A DNA stretch of 46,649 nt from NCBI GenBank assembly GCA_031276535.1, contig JAISMV010000054.1:1-46649 (forward strand). Reading direction: 5' to 3'. Positions 20,418 to 34,132 of the stretch are shown here, in pieces. The notes below the pieces were generated by a model, which was not told where the DNA came from, did not search any database, and saw nothing but the letters and a program-made list of their open reading frames with translations. The DNA is from Flavobacteriaceae bacterium (lineage in GTDB: Bacteria; Bacteroidota; Bacteroidia; Flavobacteriales; Weeksellaceae). How positions within the stretch are numbered: position 1 is the stretch's first letter; each line of letters opens with the position of its first letter. The position numbers and the translations under genes are program-made.

Positions 20418-20762
20418 CATAATAAAGTTAACTTGAGTCCGGTTTAAGAAAAGACAATGGTTAAATTACACAAAAAAGAAAAGCTTGACCTATTTATATA
20501 CTGTAATACAGATACTTGAATATTTTTTTTACATATATTTCCCATACGATTAAAATACAAAATCCTGCTCATATTAATAATATGACTTTTTGTCTTATTT
20601 ACACCTATTTAATTTAAAATAGCGCGACTTTTTGTCTGATTTATTTAACCTGTTTTTCAATCTTTAAAGTGTTAATAGGTTATATTTTAACTACTTATTA
20701 ACCTATAACACAAAATTTGGTTCGTATTTTGCATTAATAAAAACAAAACATTAAAAAATACT
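20418..20762 (+). promoter_or_regulatory. clpB upstream region with two GACTTTTTGTC sites
   Basis: Two copies of GACTTTTTGTC, each part of a longer repeat GACTTTTTGTCTnATTTA, begin at 20584 and 20626, exactly 42 bases apart. Each contains GAC and GTC as inverted arms. Further down, ATAGGTTA (20675-20682) and TAACCTAT (20699-20706) form an inverted repeat with a 16-base spacer. The likely -7 is TATTTTG at 20725-20731, one base shorter than consensus. The arrangement suggests a regulated heat-shock-type promoter. The region is otherwise AT-rich and gene-free. Confidence 0.5.
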
Positions 20763-23408
20763 ATGGATTTTAACAAACTAACCATCAAATCACAAGAAGC
20801 TTTGCAACAGGCTCAGGTGATTGCACAAGGACTGGAAAATCAGGCGATAGAGCCGGCACATTTGCTCAAGGCTTTGCTGGAGAGCGAAGCCAGCGTTATT
20901 ACCTTTATACTGAAAAAACAAGATTCAAATTTAGCATATATTAATTCAGAGTTACAATCTATCCTTTCGGAGTTTCCTAAAGTTTCCGGAGGTCAGCTGT
21001 ATCTTTCTCAAAACGCCAACAAAGCTTTAAATGAAGCCTGGCTGGAAGCCAATAAAATGAAAGATGAGTTTGTAAGCCTTGAACATATCTTGTTGGGAAT
21101 TCTTTATGCAAATGATAAAACATCTCAATTATTAAAAAATCAAGGAGTTACAAAGAATGGGGTACTTAAAGCCATTGAAGAGATCCGGAAAGGAGAACGC
21201 GTAACCTCTCAATCAGCGGAAGACACCTACAACTCTTTGAATAAATATGCCAAAAATCTGAATGAATTCGCACAGGAGGGCAAATTAGATCCCGTTATCG
21301 GACGGGACGATGAAATCCGTCGGGTATTGCAAATCCTTTCCCGAAGGACCAAGAACAACCCTATCCTCATCGGAGAGCCCGGCGTGGGTAAAACCGCCAT
21401 AGCCGAAGGGATCGCCCATCGGATTATCAATGGGGATGTTCCCGAAAACCTGAAAGACAAAACAATATATTCTTTGGATATGGGAGCATTGATCGCCGGA
21501 GCCAAGTACAAAGGAGAATTTGAAGAAAGATTGAAGGCCGTGGTGAAAGAAGTGACCTCCTCCGAAGGAAGTATTATTTTGTTTATTGATGAAATTCATA
21601 CTCTGGTCGGTGCCGGAGGGGGTGAAGGCGCCATGGACGCCGCCAATATCCTGAAACCGGCTTTAGCCCGCGGGGAATTGCGTTCCATAGGAGCTACCAC
21701 CTTAAATGAGTATCAAAAATATTTTGAAAAAGACAAAGCCCTGGAAAGGCGTTTCCAAAAAGTATTGGTGGAAGAACCGGATGTGGAAGATGCAATCGCT
21801 ATTCTTCGGGGAATTAAAGAAAGATATGAAGTACACCACAAAGTGCGAATCAAAGACGAAGCAGTCATTACTGCCGTAGAGTTGTCTAACCGGTACATTT
21901 CCGACCGCTTTCTTCCGGACAAGGCTATTGATCTAATGGATGAAGCTTCCGCTAAACTTCGTATGGAAATGAATTCCAAACCGGAAGAACTGGACACACT
22001 CGACCGAAAGAAAATGCAATTGGAAATTGAGTTGGAAGCGGTAAAACGTGAGGCTGAGAGCCCTACCTCCAACGAAAGTATCAAACAATCTAATGAAAAA
22101 AGGCTGGCTTCGGTTAAAGAAGAACTAGCGCAGCTTAATGAAAAGAGGAATGCGCTCAGCGCTTCATGGAAAGCGGAAAAAGAAAGAGCGGAAAAGATTC
22201 AGGAAATACGTAAGAACATAGAAGAATACAAGTTGGAGGCTGAACGCGCTGAACGTATCGGAGATTATGGAAAAGTAGCCGAACTGCGCTACGGAAAAAT
22301 CAAAGAACAGGAAGGGCTGTTGGTTCAAGCCGAAGCTGAATTCTCCGAAGACCGCCCGAGACTGATTAAAGAGGAAGTGGACGGAGAAGACATTGCAGAC
22401 GTGGTTGCCAAATGGACGGGCATACCCGTAACCAAACTCATACAGAGCGAACGTGAAAAACTGTTGAAACTGGAATCGGTTCTCCATAAAAGAGTGGTCG
22501 GGCAGGAAGAAGCAATAGAGGCTGTTGCCGATGCCATCCGCAGAAATCGTGCAGGATTGAACGACGAAAGAAAACCTATCGGTTCTTTCCTTTTTCTGGG
22601 AACTACCGGTGTCGGAAAAACCGAATTGGCAAAGGCACTGGCGGAGTTCTTATTTGATGACGAAAACTCTATGACACGTATTGACATGAGTGAATATCAG
22701 GAAAAACATTCCGTAAGCCGTTTGGTGGGTGCGCCTCCGGGATATGTGGGCTATGACGAGGGAGGACAGCTGACTGAAGCCGTAAGAAGAAGACCGTATT
22801 CCGTAGTGCTTTTGGATGAGATTGAAAAGGCTCATCCCGATGTGTTCAACATTTTGCTTCAGGTTCTGGATGACGGTCGTTTGACCGATAATAAGGGGAG
22901 AACGGTTAATTTTAAAAATACCATTATCGTAATGACATCCAACTTAGGTTCTTCGCTAATTCAGGAGAATTTTGAGAATTTAACAAGTGAAAATTATACG
23001 GAAATTCTGAATTTGACCAAAGAGCAGGTGATGGAATTACTGCGAAAAACTCTGCGTCCGGAATTTTTAAACCGAATTGATGAAACCATTGTATTCAAGC
23101 CATTAAACAGAAATGAAATCCGAAGCATTATCGACATTCAACTGGATTCTCTGAACCGGATATTGGCTAAAAAAGGAATTCATATGAGCATGACCGATGA
23201 AGCCAAAGATTATGTGATGGGAAAGGGCTATGATCCTTCTTTCGGAGCCAGACCTTTAAAAAGATTAATCCAGCACGAAATACTAAATCAATTATCTAAA
23301 GAGATTTTGGGAGGAAAAGTTAACGATAACGATTGCATCATCGCCGATTATTTTCCTGAAACAGGCTTAGTCTTCAGAAAAGACAATAAAGATGTGGAAG
23401 TGGTTTAA
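20763..23408 (+). CDS. clpB: ATP-dependent chaperone ClpB
   Basis: ClpB is the hexameric disaggregase that cooperates with DnaK to rescue aggregated proteins. The 881-aa protein has the Clp-N domain (about 1-145), the first AAA+ ring module (Walker [14 protein letters not shown] near 202, [11 protein letters not shown]-like pore loop), a long coiled-coil middle domain (about 400-525) and the second AAA+ module ([12 protein letters not shown] near 618, [21 protein letters not shown] pore loop) with the C-terminal small domain. The middle domain and absence of a ClpP-binding loop separate it from ClpC, which lies 8 kb away. It is monocistronic, ending at a hairpin near 23495. The paired repeats upstream suggest stress control. 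Confidence 0.96.
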
Positions 23409-33966: not shown

Positions 33967-34132
33967 TAATTCTTCATAGAATCTATCATTTATTATGCCA
34001 TTTAATTTTTTTAGGATATTTTGTCCTTATTTTTTTATCTTTATTTTACTGAAGTTTTCTGTCAGATACATTCGCAATATGTTTGAAAAATAATTAAAAC
34101 ATTTAGTTACAATATGTTAAAAATTTAGTTTA

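Follow-up and report, generated by a model that had tools for sequence, protein, structure and literature searches.

Background

The sensing of heat and the response to it are poorly defined in the Bacteroidota. In Flavobacterium psychrophilum, a -24/-12 motif (SM4) accompanies the mapped transcription starts of groESL, lon, dnaK, grpE-dnaJ, htpG and clpB (PMC9723704), and these mapped starts are independent support for sigma-54 heat-shock promoters. A 2025 survey of the Bacteroidota predicted an enrichment of sigma-54 promoters at chaperone genes (PMC12316311). Since sigma-54 promoters at flavobacterial heat-shock genes have been published in both works, the link between sigma-54 and heat shock is not new. 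In Porphyromonas gingivalis, RprY acts as a repressor of clpB, groES and dnaK, whose promoters it bound in gel-shift assays (PMC3646045). An enhancer dyad, a paired geometry and the assignment of an activator were not found in the open-access literature searched. Here we put forward one particular DNA element together with one particular activator.

The window, i.e. the whole stretch of 46,649 nucleotides analyzed (contig JAISMV010000054.1), comes from a genome of Apibacter (Weeksellaceae), and the comparison set consisted of nine genomes of this genus, whose named members include A. adventoris, A. mensalis and A. muscae. We consider it quite probable that two sites upstream of clpB, at 20584 and 20626, form an enhancer, that is two activator sites for a bacterial enhancer-binding protein (bEBP) of AAA+-HTH_8 type which would drive clpB through a sigma-54 promoter at 20717-20732.

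Results

The paired repeat upstream of clpB

The elements of the clpB upstream region are the following:
20583..20595: proposed upstream activator site 1 (UAS1), imperfect dyad TGACTTTTTGTCT with core GACTTTTTGTC at 20584-20594, centred about -155 from the predicted transcription start.
20625..20637: proposed upstream activator site 2 (UAS2), imperfect dyad CGACTTTTTGTCT with core at 20626-20636, 42 bp from UAS1, centred at about -113.
20675..20706: inverted repeat ATAGGTTA-N16-TAACCTAT with 8-bp perfect arms, between UAS2 and the promoter.
20717..20732, plus strand: predicted sigma-54-type -24/-12 promoter TTGGTTCGTATTTTGC, read as TTGG-TTCGTATT-TTGC, GG-to-GC distance 12.
20744 (approximate), plus strand: predicted transcription start, 12 bp past the -12 element, placed by sigma-54 geometry.
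20763..23408, plus strand: clpB, open reading frame of an 881-aa disaggregase (NCBIfam TIGR03346, 1309 bits, above cut-off).

The earlier note on this DNA had reported two copies of a repeat, 42 bp apart, and the sequence bears this out exactly: the 11-mer GACTTTTTGTC occurs at 20584-20594 and 20626-20636, and an 18-mer, GACTTTTTGTCTnATTTA, is common to both positions with the same period. A direct repeat of 18 bases (at most 1 mismatch, within 60 bp) arose in 1 of 400 Markov resamplings of the intergenic region. There are 3 exact copies of GACTTTTTGTC in the whole 2.29-Mb genome; the third, at C145:25109, falls within the gene of a phosphate-transporter permease and was set aside as a chance match. 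A genome scan with the 18-mer (at most 3 mismatches) gave no signal, with 28 matches against 57 for the reversed control, because real sites vary; among the genome scans, only a consensus derived from orthologues worked.

Conservation in Apibacter

Each of the nine Apibacter genomes carries a pair of related sites of the form G(A/T)C(A/T)TTnTGTC upstream of clpB, within intergenic DNA that has otherwise diverged. Eight genomes have the two sites in direct orientation at a spacing of 40, 41 or 42 bp; the ninth has them inverted, at a spacing of 31 bp. These spacings correspond to four or three helical turns, in agreement with the proposal that both copies face the same side of the DNA. The distance from the pair to the promoter is variable (54-91 bp). 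Such a combination of fixed pair spacing and variable promoter distance is the behaviour of an enhancer, so the pair is read as activator sites of a bEBP: the dyad form with consensus TGWCA-N3-TGWCA, the tandem arrangement and the tolerance to distance that characterize such upstream sites are all found at this locus. The claim that this is a conserved paired site, presumably for a heat-shock regulator, thus stood up to the comparison, and neither background scatter nor a lack of conservation at clpB orthologues, which had been named as outcomes that would refute it, was observed.

The probability that the pair is a functionless A+T-rich repeat, arisen by chance or by recent duplication, is practically nil. 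Single copies with two mismatches are indeed at background within the window (26 against 24 expected), as such an origin would have it, but the resampling result, the retention of the pair in 9/9 genomes amid diverged DNA and the enrichment of sites at other heat-shock genes (below) refute it.

The predicted sigma-54 promoter of clpB and of other chaperone genes

A GG and a GC 12 bases apart are the hallmark of sigma-54 promoters. Upstream of clpB, a -24 GG and a -12 GC (GC or GA among orthologues) at this distance are located at -42 to -47 from the ATG in 9/9 Apibacter genomes, and the core conserved across orthologues is GG-N10-G(C/A). TTGG-N8-TTGA is found at the same gene in other Flavobacteriales and in two Bacteroidales. 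Elements of this type are also present at hsp20 (7/7), htpG (8/8), dnaK (9/9), grpE (8/8), lon (9/9) and clpC (8/9). For groES, strict matching yields five; the remainder reads TTGGCAT...TTCGA, and once TTCGA is allowed the count is 8/8 among genomes with readable upstream sequence. In the window genome, no groES promoter was seen in the 180 bp upstream, which extend up to the contig end, and this counts against our reading.

The spacing was examined with the pattern [AT]TGG[CT]-N7-T[TA]G[AC] in the upstream regions of the complete congener G005, where the sigma-54 gap (gap 9) gave 29 matches and gaps 5-8 and 10-13 gave 2-9; the excess is confined to upstream regions, and no genome-wide enrichment was found in G005. 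RpoN itself is represented in the window genome by a C-terminal match (G000:C106, 81% identity) and in G005 by a protein with the AID, CBD and DBD domains (Pfam). Beyond these, G005 has approximately 20 sigma-54-type promoters at which no clear site was seen, several of them before exported or envelope proteins.

These results bear on the model of the earlier note, taken here as a cooperative repressor operator at a clpB promoter of the primary sigma factor (-33/-7) with participation of the inverted repeat, to which we give hardly any credence. The pairing of the sites on one helical face and the proximity of the inverted repeat to the promoter would suit it. However, the conserved core is GG-N10-G(C/A) and not TTG/TAnnTTTG; the sites are centred at -113 and -155, a long way upstream; no other Apibacter genome compared has the inverted repeat; and HrcA is absent. 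What had been described as a -7 element one base short (TATTTTG against TAnnTTTG, with TTG at -33) is better read as the -12 element of TTGGTTCGTATTTTGC, and the primary-sigma reading was rejected on the spacing test and the conserved core. A repressor-type operator is wrong or unsupported here: given the sigma-54 spacing, an activating (enhancer) site is the better interpretation of the pair.

The inverted repeat at 20675-20706 is real, but the role assigned to it in the element is not supported. No second copy was found in its own genome or in other Apibacter (nine genomes), and it is lineage-specific and probably lies outside the conserved element. It is also very improbable that two circuits coexist, with sigma-54 activation through the pair and a lineage-specific regulator acting on the inverted repeat: the perfect 8-bp arms between UAS2 and the promoter are in favour, the lack of any other copy in the genome or in congeners is against.

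The statement that the site is not CIRCE proved correct. A CIRCE operator would read TTAGCACTC-N9-GAGTGCTAA and be accompanied by an HrcA gene; the sequence at the site is another one, and HrcA (PF01628) was found in 0/9 Apibacter genomes with working controls, which leads us to reject control by CIRCE/HrcA. For RpoH, a simple motif scan of one congener, which is a weak test, gave one sigma-70-type protein and no second group-1/2-type sigma.

Sites at other heat-shock genes

As the earlier note had suggested, enrichment was checked in the 250 bp upstream of genes. The exact motif GWCWTTWTGTC occurs 105 times in the nine genomes, and 30 of these sites fall within this distance of eight heat-shock genes, against 0.08 expected from length alone; when clpB is left out, 16 sites remain against 0.07 expected. 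In an unbiased scan, a weight matrix representing the clpB sites was applied to 2.26 of the 2.30 Mb of G005: the top two pairs belong to clpB and to hsp20 (small heat-shock protein), and weaker pairs are seen at thioredoxin, groES and lon. A gapped direct-pair pattern applied to the nine genomes returned 8 matches, at clpB or hsp20 only, against 2 for the reversed control. At dnaK, dyads of TGACAATATGTCA type are located about 50 bp 5' of the promoter. At htpG a single site lies some 22-23 bp upstream of the -24 element, and at clpC a site lies about 22 bp upstream of it; these distances are close for a looping enhancer and count against the enhancer reading. So do lon and grpE, for which the Apibacter upstream regions contain the promoter but no clear site was seen. 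The thioredoxin and BI-1 genes were left out as regulon members, their sites being inconsistent across genomes.

clpC is located in the same window, with two elements upstream (clpC ATG at about 33928):
33986..34001, minus strand: sigma-54-type element ATGGCATAATAAATGA, in the same register in 8/9 Apibacter genomes.
34015..34025, minus strand: diverged activator-type site GACAAAATATC, weaker than the clpB sites.
The site had been described as absent upstream of clpC. This holds for the exact motif and fails for the diverged site, which stands beside the sigma-54-type element; with both present, clpC may join the regulon.

Judged from the upstream sequences, the same sites and promoter type would control hsp20, htpG, dnaK and groESL in addition to clpB, forming a heat-shock regulon that is part of the same joint reading; clpC, grpE-dnaJ and lon probably belong to it.

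The candidate activator

Sigma-54 promoters need a bEBP. Two strong bEBPs (PF00158 proteins) are present per genome in 8/9 Apibacter genomes, the exception being the 83%-complete G006, with one bEBP and a contig-edge fragment. One of the two combines AAA+ and HTH_8; the other has a receiver domain and lacks an HTH. The former is a protein of 424 aa (G000:C45) encoded between two genes which, from a reading of their sequences, we take to be miaB and lptE. Its domains are those of a bEBP of the NtrC family: the GAFTGA loop and Fis-type HTH are readable in the window genome, the G005 orthologue matches PF00158 with 228 bits and PF02954 with 46.6 bits, and an N-terminal sensor domain is absent. 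This bEBP is present in 149/150 genomes of the family. It falls below the PspF models (TIGR02974, 277 bits for a cut-off of 443.55; NF008622, 225 against 529) and is not classed as a PspF orthologue. The choice was made by elimination and by gene neighbourhood: being the only one of the two to have a DNA-binding domain, this protein is the best candidate for binding the sites.

The second bEBP (L252, G000:C77:5024-5524), of which one per Apibacter genome was seen, consists of a receiver and an AAA+ domain with a GSFTGA loop. Lacking an HTH, it is disfavoured as a binder of the sites; it could nevertheless take part, which counts against our reading, and it might serve the approximately 20 site-less sigma-54-type promoters of G005.

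The main rival binder is RprY. Another regulator, such as an RprY-like response regulator of the OmpR family, that would repress or tune the sigma-54 promoter, is an unlikely occupant of the sites. The gel-shift binding and repression cited above speak for it, as do two ORFs with a response-regulator-type motif in a congener. Against it, the RprY literature searched yielded no binding motif for RprY, and fixed pair spacing with free promoter distance suits a bEBP better. The site is moreover a dyad, perfect (TGTCATAATGACA) in reduced genomes, unlike OmpR direct repeats. OmpR proteins usually bind direct repeats.

Proposed mechanism

Returning to activation by the AAA+-HTH_8 protein, comparison of genomes shows the gene set, RpoN, a single bEBP with a DNA-binding domain, and the conservation of both the paired sites and the -24/-12 elements. 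From these we infer binding of the sites by the bEBP, their activating effect, and heat as the signal. Two bEBP dimers would bind UAS1 and UAS2 on one face of the DNA and nucleate the AAA+ ring. Looping of the DNA would bring the bEBP to the closed complex of RpoN-RNA polymerase at 20717-20732, where ATP hydrolysis would remodel the complex and open the promoter, with clpB being transcribed from about 20744. Stress could be sensed by chaperone titration, by analogy with sigma-32/DnaK and HrcA/GroEL; as the bEBP has no N-terminal sensor domain, such control is only a guess.

Site variants in related lineages

In the Chryseobacterium group (Elizabethkingia, Kaistella, Soonwooa), pairs of TTCGGAAAATTTGTC type are present upstream of clpB, 42-43 bp apart. 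In this group the pair is there (CGGAAATTTTGTC type) but clpB showed no canonical -24 GG, which counts against our reading. Several of the Chryseobacterium-type clpB loci (L062, L064, L066-L068) show a (T/A)AGAAC...TTTTG(A/C)-like stretch at the expected place. In one metagenome-assembled genome (L063), a GACATTTTGTC and a CGGAAATTTTGTC lie at a spacing of 42 bp upstream of clpB, and this mixed pair links both forms of the site.

The recognition helix of the bEBP reads GISERTLYRK in Apibacter and in the other families sampled (L359, L368-L386) and GISQRTLYRK in seven proteins from two other genera of the family (L361-L367). The latter form possibly covaries with the CGGAAATTTTGTC/CGGAAA-type sites of Chryseobacterium-like genomes, if the two genera belong to those lineages. 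In families f8 and f11 (G156, G159, G169, G171, G180, G188, G190, G196, G197, G203, G210, G211 and G218), the match to the bEBP usually stops around residue 311-331 within a frame of about 390-405 aa; these proteins may have diverged at their DNA-binding end.

Reduced genomes of the order

The bEBP orthologue is kept in eight genomes of 0.3-0.6 Mb from the order; by their size and placement they are compatible with Blattabacterium and endosymbionts like it. In all eight, groES follows on the same strand, 330-925 bp past the end of the bEBP gene. RpoN was found in at least seven of the eight, namely the seven 0.6-Mb genomes, among the matches listed. In these seven (L373, L376, L378-L380, L382, L388), whose groES upstream regions are readable, a dyad is followed by the -24/-12 element TTGGCATGTTTTTGGC. 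The dyad is TGTCATAATGACA or TGACATAATGTCA or a close variant, and one of them, TGCCATAATGACA, has one mismatch. Together these dyads define the general form TGWCA-N3-TGWCA.

Retention of RpoN in tiny genomes of Blattabacterium type has been called unusual, with a guess that it relates to nitrogen (PMC3971599). A heat-shock activator circuit offers another answer: RpoN, the bEBP and the dyad with -24/-12 element at groES may explain why these endosymbionts have kept this factor. The circuit most likely recurs across Apibacter, which are insect-gut bacteria, and in related endosymbionts of very small genome size. Whether the bEBP linked to miaB-lptE or groES is the master heat-shock activator of the Flavobacteriales, and perhaps of most Bacteroidota, acting through TGWCA-N3-TGWCA enhancers and RpoN, is in our view an even bet. 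If true, this protein would stand in for sigma-32 or HrcA and explain the presence of RpoN in highly reduced endosymbionts.

Comparison with known systems

In CIRCE/HrcA, as proposed here, a DNA element before chaperone genes controls the heat-shock response, whereas its sequence and position differ from those of the Apibacter sites. RprY, from the same phylum, is a direct regulator of the same promoters (PMC3646045), but it is an OmpR-type response regulator and a repressor, unlike the Apibacter bEBP.

PspF of E. coli shares its domain architecture with the Apibacter bEBP, namely AAA+ followed by a Fis-type HTH with no N-terminal sensor, and uses paired sites upstream of a sigma-54 promoter. 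The Apibacter protein differs by about 120 extra residues before the HTH and is proposed to act on heat-shock genes, whereas PspF acts on psp.

Among promoter studies, the Flavobacteriia set of the 2025 survey comprises, as here, groES/EL, ibpA, grpE, dnaJ, dnaK, the COG0542 Clp ATPases and COG0466 (Lon); that work relied solely on promoter matrices, we found upstream activator sites nowhere mentioned in it, and no bEBP was assigned (PMC12316311). The SM4 promoters of F. psychrophilum are of the same type as those of Apibacter and lie at nearly the same genes, and the available part of that study describes no enhancer site and does not settle on the activators, for which there are three bEBP candidates (PMC9723704). 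Unlike that study, we propose for Apibacter a paired dyad and one candidate activator. The activator question left open there, as far as the available part of the study goes, for flavobacterial sigma-54 chaperone promoters thereby becomes simply testable.
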